Assembly (NCBI GenBank): GCA_021787845.1
Contig: JAJYLH010000042.1
Coordinates: 1-52,687 of the forward strand
Source of the DNA: Myxococcales bacterium
GTDB lineage: Bacteria; Myxococcota; Myxococcia; Myxococcales; JAJYLH01
DNA: 52,687 bases
Direction of reading: 5' to 3'
Part shown: one piece after another, positions 18,342 to 29,174 of the stretch
Layout: the number at the start of each line of letters is the position of its first letter
Position numbering within the stretch: position 1 is the first letter of the stretch
Notes under the pieces: model-generated
The model's input: only the letters and a program-made list of their open reading frames with translations
What the model was told of the DNA's origin: nothing
The model's database searches: none
Made by a program: the position numbers and the translations under genes

Positions 18342-20426
18342 ATGGCGAAAAGTCCGCGCGGCTCCGCGCCGCAGCTCAGCTTGATCGATTCGCCCCGGGC
18401 GGCCCGTCCGGCGGCGGCGCCGCCCGCCCGAAAGTCGGTCGCGGTGCCCGTGACCGCTGCCGTAGAGCCTGCCGAGCCGCCGGCCCAGACGTCCGTGGCG
18501 CCGCCGTCCGTGCCCGAGCCTCCGCCCAAGCCGGCCCGGCGGGCGACCGCCGAGTCGATGGCGCAGAAGCAGCGGGAAATCTCCATCTCGGAGTTCTTCA
18601 CCAAGAACCGGCACCTCCTCGGGTTCGACAACCCCTCGAAAGCGCTTCTGACCACCATCAAAGAGGCGGTGGACAACTCGCTCGACGCCTGCGAGGAGGC
18701 GGGCATCCTCCCGGAGGTCGAGGTCGAGATCGTGGAGCTGGGCGGCGACCGCTACCAGGTCGCGGTGGAGGACAACGGTCCCGGCATCGTCAAGGCGCAG
18801 ATTCCCAAGGTCTTCGGCAAATTGCTCTATGGTTCTAAGTTCCATCGATTGAAGCAATCGCGGGGGCAGCAGGGCATCGGGATCAGCGCGGCGGTGATGT
18901 ACGGGCAGCTCACCACGGGAAAGCCGGCGCGGGTGCTGTCCCGGACCGAGCCGGGGAAGCCGGCGCACCAGTTCCTCATCCGCATCGACACCCGGAAGAA
19001 CGCGCCCGACGCGGACGACCGGGAGGTGAAGTGGCAGCGGCCGCTGAACCCGATGCTGACCGGCACCGCTTCTCCCGAGGCGAAGCTCGACCCGGATTTC
19101 ATGGTCGACAAGCCCCACGGCACCCGGGTGGAAATCGAGCTGACCGCGAACTTCGTCAACGGGCAGCGCAGCGTCCTGAGGTACCTGGAGCAGACCTCGC
19201 TCGCCAACCCGCACGCGACGATTCGCTATTTCCGCCCGAAGACGCCGCCCCTGGAGCTACCGGCTTCGACCCACGAGCTGCCGCCGGAGGCGACCGAGAT
19301 CATGCCGCACCCGCACGGCATCGAGCTCGGGGTCTTGATGTCGAAGCTGCAGGAGACCGACGAGAAGACGCTCACCACGTTCTTGCAAAAGAGCTTTTCG
19401 CGGATCTCCTCGCGAACCGCGGAAGACATCGTCCGCGTCGCCGGCCTGGGCCCGCGCGTCGCGCCGCGCAGGATTCCGCAGGCGCAGGCGGAAGCGCTGC
19501 ACAAGGCGCTCGTCGAGTCGAAGGTGCCGCCGCCGCCGACGAACTGCCTCGCGCCCATCGGCGACCTGCTGATGCGGCAGGGCTTGAAGTCGTTCCTCTC
19601 GGTGATCGACCTCGAAGACGAGATGGACCAGGAGGCGATCGCGCGCGAGGCGCAGCTCTCGATCGCGAAGGCGCGCGATAAGCAGCAGCCCTCCAGCATT
19701 GCGGAAGCGCCGGCGGAGGGTTCGGCGGCGGCCGGGGCGCCCGCGCCCGAGGCGACGGGCCCGACGCTGGAAGAGGGCGAGGAGCAGATCAAGGGGCGGC
19801 GCTACTTCCTCGCGACGGTGACCCGGCCACCGAAGGTGTACCGGGGGAACCCGTTCCAGGTGGAGGTGGGGCTCGCGTACGGCGGCACCTACCCGGCGGA
19901 CAAGACCGTCGAGCTGTACCGGATGGCGAACCGGGTCCCCTTGCTCTTCCAGCGCGGCGCCTGCGGCATCACGGAAGCGGTGACGAAGACCGACTGGCGA
20001 AACTACGAGCTTACGCAGCCCAAGGGCTCCCTTCCGGTGGGGCCGATGGCGGTGCTGGTGCACATCGCGAGCGTCTGGGTGCCGTTCACCAGCGAGTCGA
20101 AAGAGGCGATCGCGCACTACCCGGACATCCTGAGCGAGGTGAAGCTCGCGCTCCAGGATTGCGGCCGCAAGCTCGGGACCTACCTGCGCAAGATCAAGCG
20201 GGCCCGGCAGGAAGGCGAGCGGCGGGATCGCTTCCAGCTCTACATCGACGAGCTCGCGCGGTCTCTTCATCACTTGACCGGCCTGGCGGAATCCGACCTC
20301 CGAGAGGTGTTCACCGCGATGTCGGTCCAGGTCACCGCGGGGGCGGATTTCGAGAAGATGCTGGAGGAGGCCGAGCGCAAGAGGACCTCCAAGAGTAGGG
20401 AATCGTCGGTCGAAGCTGACGAATGA
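18342..20426 (+). CDS. top6B: DNA topoisomerase VI subunit B (GHKL ATPase)
   Basis: The product has 694 residues. After an Ala/Pro/Arg-rich extension of about 70 residues comes the GHKL fold. The N-box is [14 protein letters not shown], the G1 box is DNGPGI and the G2 box is [14 protein letters not shown] helix-turn-helix-like middle (RPGIP-type region) and a transducer follow, with the WKxY-like motif WRNYEL and the ATP-lysine switch loop [15 protein letters not shown]. The C-terminus is a charged helical tail. With subunit A it forms an A2B2 type II topoisomerase that passes one duplex through another using ATP. The family is standard in archaea and plants but patchy in bacteria. A low-complexity Ala/Pro/Glu insert (near residues 450-480) is unusual. 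Confidence 0.94.
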
Positions 20427-20437
20427 CTTGAGGGAAC

Positions 20438-21655
20438 ATGGCTGCGAAGAAGACCACCGGCCCAGCGAAAGCGTCGCCGAAGGCCAAGAGCCCGACCCGT
20501 TCGCCGAGGACGCCCCCGCGCAAACCGGCAGCGCTGCCGGAACCCATCGCTTCGGTCGCCCTTTCGCCGCGCGCGGAGAAGACCCGCGCCAAGATCAGAA
20601 AGCTCGCGAGCGACGTGGTCTCGCAGGTCCAGCGAGCCAAGAACCCGACGCTGATGATTCCTTCGCGCTCGCTGTCCAATGCCTTCTTCGATGAGAGCAA
20701 GCGGGTGATCCAGCTCGGCGACGCCAAGAGCGCGCGCGCCTTCTTCAACGCCTCGATGGCCAAGAAGTTCATGCAGACGTTTCTGGTCGCCGACGGCTGC
20801 CGCAAGCTCATCGAAAGCGGAAAGACGGCGAGCATCCGAGACCTGTACTACGTGATGAAGCACACCCTCGGGACGACCAAGGTGAACACGTTCGACGACC
20901 AGTCGGAGTCCGACCCCATCATCGAAGACCTCGAGGTCACGGTCGATGCTCTTCGGGAGGAGCTGCACCTGGCGGCGGAGACCAAAGGAGCGATGATCGG
21001 ACCGCTCACCATCCGCGACCGCGGAGATCAGATCGACTTGCGGCGAATGGGCTCCGGCGGCTGGTCGATTCCGTCGATCGTGGAGCCCGATACCATCGAG
21101 TTCGTCAAGCACGAAGCGAAGTTCGTGCTGCTCATCGAGAAGGGTGCGGTGTGGTCTCGGTTCAACGAAGACAAGTTCTGGAAACGGACGGGGGCGATCA
21201 TTCTGCACGGCGGCGGCCAGCCTCCGCGGGGCGTCCGCCGGTTGCTCCAGCGACTCCACCGCGAGCTGCGCCTTCCGGTCTACGTGCTGGTCGACAACGA
21301 TCCCTGGGGGTTCTACATCTATTCGGTCGTCAAGCAGGGCTCGATCAACCTCGCCTACGAGTCGATGCGGATGGCGGTGCCCGACGCGAAGTTCATCGGC
21401 CTCTCCTCCTTCGACGCCCACCGCTACGCGCTTCCGAGCGACGTCGCGATCGCGATGAACGACAAGGACGTCCAGCGGGCCAAGGAGATGCTCGCGTATC
21501 CGTGGTTCAAGGACTTGAAGTGGCAGCGAGAGATCAACGAGATGGTCCGCTCGGGGAAGAAGTACGAAATCCAGGCCCTCTCGAACCGGGACATCAGCTT
21601 CGTGACCGAGCAGTATCTCCCGAAGAAGCTGCGGGACCGCGACTGGCTCGACTGA
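20438..21655 (+). CDS. top6A: DNA topoisomerase VI subunit A (Spo11-like)
   Basis: The product has 405 residues. The first 45 residues are Lys/Pro/Ala/Thr-rich with KSPTRSP-type motifs, resembling a histone-H1 or AT-hook-like DNA-binding tail. The winged-helix CAP domain carries SIRDLYYVMKH; by analogy with Spo11 the catalytic tyrosine is Tyr138. The Toprim domain has the acidic Glu region LLIEKGAVWSRF and the metal-binding DND motif D286-x-D288 in VLVDNDPWGFYIY. This subunit makes the double-strand break with covalent 5'-phosphotyrosine links. The ATG lies 11 bases after the subunit B stop, with GAGGGA before it, so the pair is an operon. Confidence 0.94.
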   Translation: MAAKKTTGPAKASPKAKSPTRSPRTPPRKPAALPEPIASVALSPRAEKTRAKIRKLASDVVSQVQRAKNPTLMIPSRSLSNAFFDESKRVIQLGDAKSARAFFNASMAKKFMQTFLVADGCRKLIESGKTASIRDLYYVMKHTLGTTKVNTFDDQSESDPIIEDLEVTVDALREELHLAAETKGAMIGPLTIRDRGDQIDLRRMGSGGWSIPSIVEPDTIEFVKHEAKFVLLIEKGAVWSRFNEDKFWKRTGAIILHGGGQPPRGVRRLLQRLHRELRLPVYVLVDNDPWGFYIYSVVKQGSINLAYESMRMAVPDAKFIGLSSFDAHRYALPSDVAIAMNDKDVQRAKEMLAYPWFKDLKWQREINEMVRSGKKYEIQALSNRDISFVTEQYLPKKLRDRDWLD

Positions 21656-23819: not shown

Positions 23820-25622
23820 ATGGCGCCGCGACGACTGGCCGTGCTCGGCGTGCTCCTGCTCGCCGCTTGCGCTTCCTCCCCCAAGCAGAAGAGCTCCTCG
23901 GCACCGCACCCGCCCAACGTCGACCTGGTCGTGGACGCGAACCGCGACGGCGCGCTCGACCTCCAGGGAATCACCGACGAGGCGGGCAAGAACGACTTCA
24001 CCGCCAAGGCGGGAGCGGTGGTCCTCGCGAACCTCGACGACGACGACCAGGACGGCCAGCCCGACGCGACCGAGTCTCACGTCGCGGGCGATGCCGACAC
24101 CCAGGATCTCTCGCCCATCGCGGTGCGCGCCTTCCCGAGCGCTCCCAATGGGGCGGTGGGCGTGCTCTCGGTCGACAGCCTCGGCGCGGCTCATGCGAAG
24201 CTCTTCCGCGTGACGGGGTCGCGCGACCTCGCCGCCGACTACACGTTGGTTCCGGATCCGTCGCACGTGTCCCTCGCCACCGGGGACGTGCGCGCCGGCG
24301 AGGCGTTCGCCATCGAGGCCACCGCGTTCGTCGGCACGACCAATGACGGCTGGGACGGGACCTTCCATCTCACGTACGAGGTCGACGGCGCGACAGGCAA
24401 GCCCCTGGGAATCGACCACGCGATGCTGCGGGTCGCGCCAGTGCTCTTTCAATGGAACACCGCGAAGACCGAGCGCGTGTACTACACGGGTGACGCCGAT
24501 GCGCAGGACACCTCGACGGACTCGCTGCGCGACGGGGTGAAGCCGGTCTGCACCGGCGGCATCGAGGAAACTCCGATCGAGCTGGGCGACACCGACTACG
24601 ATCAGTGGGCGCAAGACTTCTTCGACGTCGCGTACACGTCGCGTCCCGGACCCGGCGGCAAGCCGATCGGGATGAAGGTCTACACGCGCTCGCCGCAGCC
24701 GGACCGCCCAGCCGGCGGCGACGTGCTCAAGGCGGTGTTCGGTCCGAACGTCGCCACCGTCTACCTCCACGGGCCGTCGATGGCCAACGGGAGCGGCAAC
24801 GGTTACAGCATGAGCTCCTTTGGCAACTTCGACGTGGTGCCGCCCTACGACAAGGGAAGCGAGCACTACCCGCTCGGCCGCAACTTCTGGGGCAAGGGCC
24901 CGACCCCGGCCGACCAGCCGGACCCGGTCTACACGGCCTTCGTTTCCGCGCAGCAGGTGCAGCCCGAGATCCACATCGACACGACGTTCCTGCTCGTCGG
25001 CCACGTCGATGAGATCACTTCGTTCGTCGAGACGAACACCCCGCGCGGCTGGGGCCTGCTCGCGGCGAAGCCCGCGCTCGCGCGCTCGATGCTGCAACAG
25101 ATGCAGGCGGCCGGCGACGGCTCGACCCAGATGTTCGTGGGCAAGGAAGATTTCGACTACATGAGCTGGGACGGATCCGGCAATCCGCGGCAGATCAACG
25201 GCGCGGTCAGCATCGACGACGTGCTCGGGAACGCCGACCTCATGGCCGAAAGCCAGAAGGCGGAGGTGGCGATCGACGCGGCGGTGAGCTCGTTGCAAAG
25301 CGAAATCGGGCTCGCCGACAGCGAGATCACGCCGATGCCGTTCCTCTTCGAGCCGGTGCTGGGCTCGGCGCTCGCCTACCAGCCGGGGACGGTCAACCTC
25401 TTGCACGTCGACGGCCGGGTGGTGGTGCCAGAGCCGTTCGGACCGATGATCAACGGCGTCGACCCGTTCAAGGCGGACGCAGTCTCGCGCCTGTCCGCGC
25501 TCGGGCTGGACGTCTTCTTTGCGGACGACTGGGACACCTATCACATCGAGATGGGCGAGGTTCACTGCGGCACCAACGTGTCGCGCGACCTGGGCGTCAA
25601 GTGGTGGGAGTCGGGACGATGA
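23820..25622 (+). CDS. protein-arginine deiminase (PAD) family lipoprotein
   Basis: The product has 600 residues. The lipoprotein signal is RRLAVLGVLLLAAC. Residues about 35-80 hold two Asp-rich calcium-binding-like motifs (DANRDGALDLQG, DDDDQDGQPDATE). The C-terminal 340 residues match the animal-type PAD catalytic domain: YDQWAQDF (D266, equivalent to human PAD4 Asp350), SFGNFDVVPP, VSAQQVQPE, VGHVDEITSFV (H395, D397), VPEPFGPMING and GEVHCGTNVSRD with the nucleophile Cys583, then VKWWE. Every catalytic residue I know for PAD4 is present, so citrullination of protein arginine, with calcium control, is a reasonable prediction outside the cytoplasmic membrane. This is not the Porphyromonas PPAD type (agmatine-deiminase-like). 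The stop overlaps the next ATG. Confidence 0.92.
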   Translation: MAPRRLAVLGVLLLAACASSPKQKSSSAPHPPNVDLVVDANRDGALDLQGITDEAGKNDFTAKAGAVVLANLDDDDQDGQPDATESHVAGDADTQDLSPIAVRAFPSAPNGAVGVLSVDSLGAAHAKLFRVTGSRDLAADYTLVPDPSHVSLATGDVRAGEAFAIEATAFVGTTNDGWDGTFHLTYEVDGATGKPLGIDHAMLRVAPVLFQWNTAKTERVYYTGDADAQDTSTDSLRDGVKPVCTGGIEETPIELGDTDYDQWAQDFFDVAYTSRPGPGGKPIGMKVYTRSPQPDRPAGGDVLKAVFGPNVATVYLHGPSMANGSGNGYSMSSFGNFDVVPPYDKGSEHYPLGRNFWGKGPTPADQPDPVYTAFVSAQQVQPEIHIDTTFLLVGHVDEITSFVETNTPRGWGLLAAKPALARSMLQQMQAAGDGSTQMFVGKEDFDYMSWDGSGNPRQINGAVSIDDVLGNADLMAESQKAEVAIDAAVSSLQSEIGLADSEITPMPFLFEPVLGSALAYQPGTVNLLHVDGRVVVPEPFGPMINGVDPFKADAVSRLSALGLDVFFADDWDTYHIEMGEVHCGTNVSRDLGVKWWESGR

Positions 25623-26464
25623 GCGCCATCCTCTGCGCGTTGGTGCTGACCGCGTCCGTGGCGCCGTCCGCGTCTCCCGCGTCTCCCGTGCCAACGGCGA
25701 TGTCCACCTCGCAGGCTCCTGATTACGGCGCGATCGTCGATGGGCTGGCCCAGCGTACGAGTCGGCTGCCGCGCGACCGACGGGGCATGATCGTTCCGCT
25801 CCTCGTGCGCCTCGGTCCCGCCGCGGTGCCGGCGATGCTCGCGCGCTTGTCCCAGGAATCACCGATGATGGCCAAGGTTCGCGCGGCGGACCCTGACGCG
25901 GCGCGCTTCTTTCGCGAGGCCCTGACCGACGCGTTGGGGCGCGACCGGGACGCGCGCGCGCTCCCGCTCTTGACTGAGATCTTTTTCAGCGGCTCCTCCG
26001 ACCACCGACTCGTGCGGGCGGCGGCGCAGGGTCTCGGCCGCCTGTGCGACCAAGGAAGCTTTGAGACCCTCGCCTCGCACCTCGCCGACGCGGGCGACCT
26101 CGCGCTCGCGGCGATTTCGGGGTTGGGCCAGTGTCGCGAGGAGCGATCGGTCGCGCTGTTGGCGGCGCGGCTGGCGAACACCTCGGACCCGATGGCGATG
26201 AAGGACATCGCCGATGCCCTCGGGCAGGCGGCGTCGAGCTGGGCGTGGGTGGCGATGGGTCCGACGCGGGCCGACGAAGGAGCTCGCGCGCGTCATCTCG
26301 CGGCGGAGGCGCTGCTTGGCGCATACGTGCGCGCGCCTGCGCTCGCGCGCGAGACCATCGCTGAGTCGCTCGTGATGACCGATGACCCGTCGGTTCCCGC
26401 CGCGCTCACCGACCAGCGATTTGCCGCCATCGCGCCGCTCTGGCGCCGCGCGCATCTGCGGTAG
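25619..26464 (+). CDS. exported HEAT-repeat protein coupled to PAD
   Basis: The product has 281 residues. It starts with a signal-peptide-like sequence (MSAILCALVLTASVAPSASP). The remainder is helical repeats of HEAT/PBS-lyase type: PLLVRLGPAAVPAMLARLSQ, ALPLLTEIFFSGSSDHRLVR, AAQGLGRLCDQGSFETLASH, AAISGLGQCREERSVALLAA. HEAT arrays usually bind other proteins. ATG 25619 overlaps the PAD stop (ATGA), implying coupled translation and a possible partner or substrate-docking role for the deiminase (inference). The end is followed by the second 42-nt palindrome. Confidence 0.75.
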   Translation: MSAILCALVLTASVAPSASPASPVPTAMSTSQAPDYGAIVDGLAQRTSRLPRDRRGMIVPLLVRLGPAAVPAMLARLSQESPMMAKVRAADPDAARFFREALTDALGRDRDARALPLLTEIFFSGSSDHRLVRAAAQGLGRLCDQGSFETLASHLADAGDLALAAISGLGQCREERSVALLAARLANTSDPMAMKDIADALGQAASSWAWVAMGPTRADEGARARHLAAEALLGAYVRAPALARETIAESLVMTDDPSVPAALTDQRFAAIAPLWRRAHLR

Positions 26465-27104: not shown

Positions 27105-28955
27105 TCAGTTCAACGACGCGGTCGCGTAGTCGTCGAGCGTCGAGAGCGACGAAAACCCGTAGGTCACCGAGCTCGGCGCGCCGGCGACGGTCAGCACCAC
27201 GGGCGCGCCGCTGGCGTCGAGGTCGAGCTCGTAGATGTCGCTTCCGACCGCCACTTCGAGCGTGCCCTCCACCGCGAACGACGGCGTGAACGTCACTTGG
27301 GAAAAGTTGCCAATCGCCTGCCGCGAGACGGTAAAGGTCGGCGCCGGAATCAGCGTCGGGTCGGTGTAGACCGGCAAGAGGCCGTCGCCCAGGTAGGTCG
27401 CGGCCTTCTGCGTCCAGCGCCAACTGTCGGCGTCGATCACCGACGCCTGATAGGTGCCGATGATCGGAACCGGGATGCTGATGGCGTCGCTCGTCGGCAG
27501 GTTGGCGTGCGCCGCCTGCACCGCCTCGCCCGCGAGCACCTGGCCGCCGGAAAAAGCCTTGCGCAAGAAGCCGTCGAGGAGCTGCATCCCGCCCGCGATG
27601 CCGAGGCCGATGGTGCTGTTGCCCAGATATCCGACGCCGCCCCCAGCAGGAGCGGTGATGTACTGCTGGCCAGCGCACCTGTCGCCGTCGGCGAACGTCG
27701 CGGCCTCGCAGGCGCACGAAACCATGATCGGGTATTGCGTGTTCGTCAGCGCGTAGGCCATGTCGCCTGAAAACTCGTTCGAGCCGTCCTGCTCGACGGT
27801 CAGGTCCCATTCGTCGCCGTGACCGGAGTGGACCACCAGGCTCGACCCGGCCTCGAGCGCGGCCTGCTCCGCGGGCACCGTGAGCTGCTGGGCGCCCGCC
27901 GCGGTGCTGAACGTCGAGTCCGAGTAGAGCTTGGTGATGTCCCAGTCCGTCGGCAGGATCGACAGCGTTCGTCCGGGGGCCTCGAAGTAGAAGGCTGAGT
28001 CGACCGGCACGTCTCCCACGAGCGGGACGCTCAAGGTGGTCGCGATGTTCGAGAGGAACAACGCGGTCGCGATGCGCGAGGTGTCGTACGCGGTCAGGTA
28101 CTGCGTCGCCTTGGCGATGTAGGTCTGCAGCTCGTCCTGCGACGACACCGACACCCGCGTGATGCCCACCACCGGCGAGTAGGCGGGCGTGTCGGTCGTC
28201 GGATCGCCGTAGACGCAGTCGTGGTTCGTGTCCCACTCGGAAAAGTCGCCGTAGTAGTCGTCGGAGAGGAACGTCTCCTGGTAGTCCGCGCCGACCAGGG
28301 CGTTCGAGAAAGCGTCGCTCGTCGAGCGCGAGGGCACGATGGTCGCGTCGCCGCCCAGCACGACCTGCGTGACGCCCGCGAGATGCTGCGCTTCGAGGTA
28401 GGTCTTGATCGCCTTGGGCGTGTCGTTGCAGGGGTCGGAGTCGTCGCAACCGCCCGGCGTCGCGGCGCAGATGTCCTCGATGGTCTCGACGCGGGTGGGC
28501 ACGCCGGTCAGCGTGTGCAGGAGCGCGAGCTGCTCGAAGCCCGGCGCGTAGGCAGCGTTCGTCACGATGAGCGCGTCGTAGGAGAGGCTCGCCTTGGCGG
28601 TCAAGGTCGGCGCGGTGCAGGTGTGCGAGCCGTCGCAGAGCGGCACCGTTGCCGGGCAGTCCGCATCGGACGCGCAGCGGCCGGGGCTCGGCACGCAGGC
28701 GCGCAACTGGCAGGTCTGCCAGTCGGCGCACGTCGGAGCGCACAGCGAAGCCTGGCACTGGCCCGTCGCCGCGTTGCAGACCTGGCCCGGGCAGTCGGTG
28801 TCGGAAGAGCACCCGGTCGTGACGGGCGAGCCCGCGTCGGGCGACGAGCCCGCGTCGACGTAGGTGTTCGAGCTTCCGCTTCCGCCGTCTCTGCCCGGCT
28901 GCCCTCCTACCGAGCATGAGGCCAGCAGGACTGCGATGAGAATCGATGCGCGCAA
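27105..28955 (-). CDS. gingipain-like C25 family cysteine protease lipoprotein
   Basis: The product has 616 residues. GGAGG six bases before TTG 28955 and the lipobox RASILIAVLLASC place the start here; the frame is open further upstream without a signal. Residues about 40-125 are Cys-rich, with DTDCPGQVCNAATGQC-type knots. The C25 catalytic domain follows: LSYDALIVTNAAYAPGFEQL, VLGGDATIVPSR, VGITRVSV, then SGHGDEWD with His379 and SCACEAATF with Cys416, which fits the spacing of the gingipain R catalytic Cys to the next conserved Cys. An Ig-like beta domain closes the protein. C25 enzymes are secreted endopeptidases; Arg specificity is possible but not shown. The antisense frame is also open, a GC artefact. 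Confidence 0.88.
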   Translation of the reverse strand: MRASILIAVLLASCSVGGQPGRDGGSGSSNTYVDAGSSPDAGSPVTTGCSSDTDCPGQVCNAATGQCQASLCAPTCADWQTCQLRACVPSPGRCASDADCPATVPLCDGSHTCTAPTLTAKASLSYDALIVTNAAYAPGFEQLALLHTLTGVPTRVETIEDICAATPGGCDDSDPCNDTPKAIKTYLEAQHLAGVTQVVLGGDATIVPSRSTSDAFSNALVGADYQETFLSDDYYGDFSEWDTNHDCVYGDPTTDTPAYSPVVGITRVSVSSQDELQTYIAKATQYLTAYDTSRIATALFLSNIATTLSVPLVGDVPVDSAFYFEAPGRTLSILPTDWDITKLYSDSTFSTAAGAQQLTVPAEQAALEAGSSLVVHSGHGDEWDLTVEQDGSNEFSGDMAYALTNTQYPIMVSCACEAATFADGDRCAGQQYITAPAGGGVGYLGNSTIGLGIAGGMQLLDGFLRKAFSGGQVLAGEAVQAAHANLPTSDAISIPVPIIGTYQASVIDADSWRWTQKAATYLGDGLLPVYTDPTLIPAPTFTVSRQAIGNFSQVTFTPSFAVEGTLEVAVGSDIYELDLDASGAPVVLTVAGAPSSVTYGFSSLSTLDDYATASLN

Positions 28956-29174
28956 CTCAAGCCTCCGACCGGCGACGGTCGACGTCGCGCCGTCGCGGGC
29001 AGAGCATGCACCGTTTTGGGGGGGCGGACAACTGCTTATCCGGTTGGTGCCGCGAATCGTCGAAAGAGCGGGACCCGCTTGCTCCGCGGACCGAAAAGAA
29101 CTGGCTCTGCGCCGTTTCGCGTGGGTGGCGGGGAACGAGATGACGTTCATGATCATGCTCTTTCTCGGCCGAAA

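Follow-up and report, generated by a model that had tools for sequence, protein, structure and literature searches.

To our knowledge, protein citrullination has been studied almost solely in vertebrates and Porphyromonas. This report concerns a peptidylarginine deiminase (PAD) gene and the HEAT-repeat gene that overlaps its end, both located on contig JAJYLH010000042.1 of the Myxococcales bacterium assembly GCA_021787845.1. The whole stretch of DNA analysed, 52,687 nucleotides, is referred to as the window. The host is a soil-type myxobacterium, and the window PAD is the sole match to the catalytic-domain profile PF03068 in its 6.24 Mb genome. The PAD enzyme itself is of a known kind. The exclusive pair that it forms with the HEAT gene is undescribed, as far as searchable papers show. 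The literature searched contained no paper linking arginine deiminases with HEAT repeats in Myxococcota or protein-arginine deiminase with Myxococcota, and no PAD with a dedicated gene-encoded partner of the HEAT kind.

The vertebrate PADs, represented by human PAD1-4, share with the window PAD the PAD_M and PAD_C domains, the catalytic Asp, His, Asp, and Cys residues, the ligands of calcium sites Ca1 and Ca3-5, and the fold. In contrast to them, the window PAD has no PAD_N domain, has lost the Ca2 ligands and the calcium-switch Asp, is a predicted exported lipoprotein, and has a HEAT gene partner. The three-domain animal and cyanobacterial PADs form a clade distinct from the two-domain fungal, actinobacterial, and proteobacterial type (PMC8826395). 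Cyanothece cyanoPADI is, like the window PAD, a bacterial enzyme with PAD_M and PAD_C; the cyanobacterial PAD citrullinates proteins and strictly requires calcium (PMC8826395). Unlike the window PAD, cyanoPADI has a degenerate PAD_N and Ca2/Ca4 features, and PMC8826395 mentions no lipoprotein, signal peptide, operon, or HEAT partner for it.

The actinobacterial PADs examined are two-domain, exported-looking proteins that are 29-34% identical to the window PAD. A Streptomyces PAD is reported to deiminate the arginine of a lasso peptide in vivo (PMC9266682); this citrulassin PAD is credited to Harris et al. 2020, cited in PMC9266682 and PMC12971885. Its known substrate is a lasso peptide, and its comparison with the window PAD was made through the other actinobacterial PADs examined. 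The Porphyromonas gingivalis enzyme PPAD also carries out extracytoplasmic bacterial citrullination, but it is a distinct agmatine-deiminase-like enzyme without PAD_M (PMC8826395), whereas the window PAD matches PF03068 and PF08527 alone. For the partner, the closest described proteins are of the HEAT/PBS-lyase type (CpcE/F, NblB, HEAT_2), which share its HEAT_2 repeats and solenoid model. Unlike these, the window HEAT protein is exported-looking and its kind, at the profile threshold applied, is confined to the immediate neighbourhood of PAD genes. Against the NblB profile it scores 24/300 bits, far under the cut-off.

The pair comprises the following features, numbered by position in the window.

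23820 to 25622, forward strand: PAD gene, ATG start, encoding a 600-residue peptidylarginine deiminase lipoprotein with PAD_M and PAD_C and without PAD_N.
23820 to 23870, forward strand: type II signal peptide MAPRRLAVLGVLLLAAC (residues 1-17), assigned by pattern, with lipobox LAAC (L14-A15-A16-C17); Cys17 is the predicted lipidation residue.
23919 to 24335, forward strand: PAD_M domain, residues 34-172 (Pfam PF08527, E 2e-7).
24030 to 24107, forward strand: calcium cluster of the Ca3-5 type, residues N71-D96, aligned to human PAD3 N153-D179.
24414 to 25610, forward strand: PAD_C catalytic (pentein) domain, residues 199-597 (Pfam PF03068, E 2.5e-78).
24615 to 24617, forward strand: catalytic Asp266 (human D350), from the alignment to human PAD3.
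25002 to 25010, forward strand: catalytic His395 and Asp397 (human PAD3 H470 and D472) in VGHVDE, from the same alignment.
25566 to 25568, forward strand: catalytic Cys583 (human PAD3 C646) in GEVHCGTN, from the same alignment.
25619 to 25622, forward strand: ATGA, in which the HEAT start overlaps the PAD stop codon TGA, as read in the sequence.
25619 to 26464, forward strand: HEAT-repeat partner gene, 281 residues (HEAT_2, E 1.5e-9), with an export-signal-like N-terminus and an all-helical solenoid model.

PADs are widespread in Myxococcota, and most are accompanied by a HEAT gene. Among 147 genomes searched in the class, 43 have a PF03068 match; for the phylum as a whole the figure is 54 of 195. 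Carriers include Myxococcus, Pyxidicoccus, Archangium, Polyangium, Labilithrix, and many uncultured members. A preliminary description of the locus, made from the sequence alone, placed bacterial homologues mainly in cyanobacteria and a few other groups. The 54 of 195 Myxococcota genomes, however, represent a higher frequency than in cyanobacteria, for which PMC8826395 gives 11% of species. The loci compared are 58 from the phylum survey and the best 80 of 404 relatives from an alignment-based contig scan; with the window, they represent 117 distinct PADs. An initial contig scan with the single PAD protein as query gave no match. The best-80 sample is biased towards window-like PADs, and the 58 survey loci are free of that bias.

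A gene matching the HEAT profile is adjacent to 104 of the 117 distinct PADs. It follows the PAD in 100 cases and directly precedes it, with adjacency kept, in the remaining 4 (L096, L097, L118, and L165). The overlapping HEAT partner, first regarded as unusual, is instead the rule in this phylum. The HEAT start lies at exactly -4 relative to the PAD end in 92 of the 100 downstream pairs. Because this four-base ATGA overlap recurs at the same place, the HEAT start is most likely ATG 25619, replacing GTG 25601 of the open reading frame list. The overlap and the HEAT-repeat nature of the gene stand as originally described, with the start moved.

The association also holds when the HEAT protein is the query. 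When 142 genomes of the class were searched with the HEAT alignment, 35 of them yielded 38 matches in total (E up to 1e-15), and all 38 adjoin a PAD. This search scored only the best candidates per genome, so that more distant HEAT proteins may occur elsewhere, and coordinates were compared by eye. No PAD locus examined contains a second HEAT-profile match elsewhere. The other neighbours in the window (topoisomerase VI genes, a kinase, a thioesterase, and a C25 peptidase) do not recur next to any other PAD at E 1e-4, and the pairing is therefore not a by-product of general synteny. Chance cannot account for it, because it recurs in more than 100 distinct loci where no other window neighbour is conserved. 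No natural PAD-HEAT fusion is present among 139 PAD open frames.

The two genes appear to travel together. PAD and HEAT identity matrices correlate with r 0.89 over 91 pairs, which is weak evidence when taken by itself because the comparison has no neutral control gene. Two pairs per genome are observed in G048 (L078/L089), G105 (L081/L117), and G136 (L037/L087). The pairs of G136 are unlike each other, and both L037 proteins are nearest to those of a foreign locus, L088, rather than to those of their genome-mate L087; pairs therefore seem to be relocated or duplicated whole. A further pair is present at L152 in G196, a genome of an 8-genome phylum sample. The tree places the L152 PAD inside the Myxococcota set, and this nesting suggests joint transfer of both genes. 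A second PAD type, found in other Myxococcota classes, is ~28-31% identical to the window PAD and forms a fully supported separate tree group. Most of its members also have HEAT-type genes downstream, and the association is for that reason old within the phylum.

The window PAD is a genuine member of the PAD family. It scores 264 bits against PF03068, where the curated cut-off is 25, and covers profile positions 5-395 of 395. The PF08527 match also exceeds its curated cut-off, and no other Pfam family was matched. PAD_N is absent from the Pfam scan, and the gap between Cys17 and PAD_M is ~16 residues. A sequence search of the PDB with the window PAD returned PADs exclusively (PAD3, PAD4, PAD1, PAD2, and PAD6), and the human PAD1-4 sequences among these solved structures align with E values from 1e-51 to 1e-34. 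The open reading frame at 23820-25622 in the preliminary description is real. An AlphaFold2 model of the mature protein, built from 60 aligned sequences, has a mean predicted local distance difference test score (pLDDT) of 91.9 and a predicted template modelling score of 0.90. Its top Foldseek match is human PAD4 (E 2.7e-52, template modelling score 0.81 over the query), and its 50 best PDB matches are all PAD structures or complexes holding PAD6. A displaced active site, with Cys583 far from His395 and Asp397, is unlikely because the model matches inhibitor-bound PAD4 across the domain.

Residue equivalences were taken from an alignment of the window PAD with human PAD3, with PAD3 and part of the PAD4 sequences drawn from search alignments. 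D266, H395, D397, and C583, named as catalytic from the outset, all align with the human PAD3 tetrad. No substitution at these four positions occurs in any of 65 relatives of the HEAT-linked type, nor in 10 distant Myxococcota PADs or 7 PADs from actinobacteria. With the family assignment, this makes it very probable that the window PAD is an active peptidylarginine deiminase. The activities reported for a Streptomyces and a cyanobacterial PAD imply that bacterial members of the family can function as enzymes.

The residue make-up of each calcium site is that known from the PAD4 and PAD2 structures. The Asp-rich stretch at residues 71-96, earlier described as calcium-like, corresponds to the PAD_M calcium cluster. 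N71, D73, D75, D82, E85, D93, and D96 correspond to human PAD3 N153, D155, D157, D165, D168, D176, and D179, with E85 a conservative swap for D168; N71, D73, D75, D82, D93, and D96 are invariant across 65 relatives. The Ca1 site is retained with conservative swaps (Q265, D269 for E353, F334, F337, and D338 for E411). The Ca2 ligands are lost (E351 is F267, D369 is R290, and N373 is P294), and the calcium-switch Asp (PAD2 D389) is N310. Calcium dependence is likely because the Ca1 and Ca3-5 ligands are retained, and calcium control may differ from that of the human enzyme because Ca2 and the switch Asp are lost. Which calcium sites persist in which PAD type follows PMC8826395.

The PAD carries the signal of an exported lipoprotein. 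As originally proposed, a lipobox, LAAC with Cys17, is present, and an equivalent one is found in most PAD relatives with a complete 5' end. The +2 residue is Ala, and there is no Asp retention signal. Export and lipid anchoring are predicted, with the outer membrane as the predicted location, and the window PAD can be placed outside the cytoplasm with high confidence. Citrullination at the surface or in the periplasm, as first suggested, is supported as a prediction by this signal. Export signals were assessed by simple rules and patterns instead of a trained predictor.

The term animal-type, as first applied to this enzyme, fits the PAD family and the catalytic tetrad and does not fit the clade. 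Judged by its sequence traits, the window PAD is not a member of the animal/cyanobacterial PADI clade (clade Ai of PMC8826395), because it is without PAD_N, the Ca2 site, and the calcium-switch Asp. The absence of PAD_N and Ca2 ligands are traits of the two-domain PADI type. The His-rich linker motif between PAD_M and PAD_C of the fungal/actinobacterial two-domain type is absent, and the window PAD has QWNT there; HH or HHH is present in 3 of 4 Streptomyces-type rows and several Myxococcota relatives. By identity, the window PAD is about equally close to actinobacterial PADs and to human PAD3 (30.5%). In the tree, its split from the animal side has only 68% support. This tree has no cyanobacterial or fungal sequences, and the animal/cyanobacterial relation was therefore judged from PMC8826395 and the site comparison. 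The actinobacterial PADs examined branch beside most HEAT-linked Myxococcota PADs. The closest relative of the window PAD, L095, is 52% identical, also has a HEAT gene, and shares one deep branch with it.

The HEAT protein is modelled as a solenoid of 16 helices and zero strands (pLDDT 91.1), which resembles alphaRep and HEAT/PBS-type solenoids in a structure search. A simple signal-peptide rule is passed by 87 of 91 HEAT partners, including that of the window, and 3 have a lipobox-like motif. The window HEAT N-terminus is signal-like, yet without a basic residue.

Our favoured proposal, which we consider probable, is that PAD and HEAT form one functional unit: a calcium-dependent extracytoplasmic PAD with a dedicated periplasmic HEAT binding partner that controls its activity or substrate access. 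Sec would export the PAD, Cys17 would receive the lipid, and the protein would be anchored, as predicted, at the outer membrane. Calcium at the PAD_M cluster and the Ca1 site would order the active site. A peptidyl arginine would have its guanidinium held by Asp266 and Asp397 and attacked by Cys583, and His395 would serve as general acid/base, with ammonia released and citrulline left. The HEAT solenoid, made by coupled translation, would be exported to the periplasm, bind the PAD, and govern either how active the enzyme is or which substrate proteins gain access to its active site. The sequences themselves show the family, the residues, the overlap, and the exclusivity of the pair, from which export, anchoring, activity, calcium need, and physical binding are inferred. 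That HEAT is a physical partner of the PAD is quite likely. That it is an adaptor or regulator, as opposed to a substrate or a pure chaperone, has about an even chance. An extended version is tentative and rather doubtful: a dedicated Myxococcota system of extracytoplasmic citrullination, in which a calcium-dependent lipoprotein PAD and an obligate HEAT protein giving substrate recognition or switching carry out regulated modification of arginines in surface or secreted proteins, either the cell's own or those of prey.

Several observations weigh against the favoured proposal. Shared descent explains part of the correlation of 0.89, in which no neutral gene serves as control. The export signals come from simple rules, and that of the window HEAT protein has no basic n-region. 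With the Ca2 ligands gone and Asn in place of the switch Asp, calcium control may be different or weaker. A few active-looking PADs also occur without a HEAT neighbour (L059/L173, L062, L083, L139, and the actinobacterial PADs examined), and HEAT is therefore not required for fold or chemistry as such.

Thirteen PADs have no neighbour that matches the HEAT profile. In two of these, L058 and L060, a different HEAT_2 protein begins at the usual -4 overlap, and the protein at L068 carries a signal but matches no Pfam family. The remainder include L167, which is a Streptomyces PAD, the fragment L074, and the odd copy L069, together with L070, L071, L072, and L059, L062, L083, and L139, most of them in genomes with another PAD. 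L072 (7538-9559, reverse strand) encodes a PAD-like lipoprotein in which the catalytic Cys region is gone (GGVRDAM for GEVHCGT), possibly a pseudo-enzyme. It has no HEAT neighbour, and the joint absence of the catalytic Cys and the HEAT gene counts in favour of a functional unit. L070 (7023-9206, forward strand) and L071 (7542-9782, reverse strand), from two genomes of one taxonomic order, have no signal peptide, a long catalytic-domain insertion, and no HEAT neighbour; they are perhaps a cytoplasmic PAD type. Actinobacterial PADs are found above cut-off in 8 of 297 genomes, and no HEAT gene lies downstream in the loci examined.

The likeliest alternative is that HEAT is a PAD-specific periplasmic chaperone or maturation factor for folding or delivery, which would leave activity and the selection of substrates unaffected. 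The four-base overlap and strict one-to-one pairing would suit a co-folding partner, and protein binding is a general property of HEAT solenoids. Some myxobacterial PADs and the exported-looking ones of actinobacteria nevertheless occur without HEAT. An adaptor or regulator is for that reason preferred, and the chaperone is unlikely.

A rather improbable alternative is that HEAT shields the producing cell as an inhibitor or immunity protein, while the PAD, displayed on the surface or transferred as a lipoprotein, acts on prey or competitors. Myxococcus is known to have lipoprotein toxins whose immunity genes lie downstream, and the tight downstream gene, the lipoprotein enzyme, and a phylum with predators agree with this idea. 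The PAD, however, is well conserved across the phylum and not polymorphic, which also speaks against a Sit-like contact-transferred toxin. HEAT has an export signal by the simple rule, some PADs are without HEAT, and citrullination is not known as a bacterial killing mechanism.

It is improbable that HEAT is the main PAD substrate, with citrullination of its conserved arginines altering its binding. R55 and R225 are near-invariant among 53 HEAT homologues, and R173 is invariant in a set of 17. These arginines may, however, be structural in HEAT repeats, and the window HEAT protein is otherwise only ~22-33% identical to its homologues.

The neighbour downstream of the HEAT gene is the following.

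27108 to 29156, reverse strand: peptidase C25 (gingipain-family) gene (C25, E 2.5e-40), with a weak match to a myxobacterial Cys-rich repeat.

It lies tail to tail with the HEAT gene, on the opposite strand. A coupling like that of Porphyromonas gingivalis, with the peptidase cleaving after Arg and the PAD citrullinating the freshly exposed ends, is most improbable. In the loci searched, the window C25 protein has no counterpart next to other PADs at E 1e-4 (one partial weak match at L067, in a smaller set), and this largely refutes gingipain-PAD coupling as a general mechanism. A role in anti-phage defence was also rejected, as PADLOC returned only a weak generic HEAT match.

PADs, most of them lipoproteins, are thus present in over a quarter of the Myxococcota genomes searched, and their partner protein occurs only next to them. 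If HEAT controls the PAD, it would be a natural PAD regulator. Carriers include culturable Myxococcus species, in which bacterial citrullination and its purpose would be directly testable.

No match to the PAD was found in the phages or viral contigs searched, and a few Streptomyces and Embleya plasmids carry PADs. In the N-termini of some distant PADs (L062 and L066), the lipobox is separated from the PAD domains by long runs of Gly-Asp repeats (GDGDGD). Upstream of the pair, at 18342-21655 on the forward strand of the window, adjoining genes are read from their translations alone as topoisomerase VI subunits B and A.

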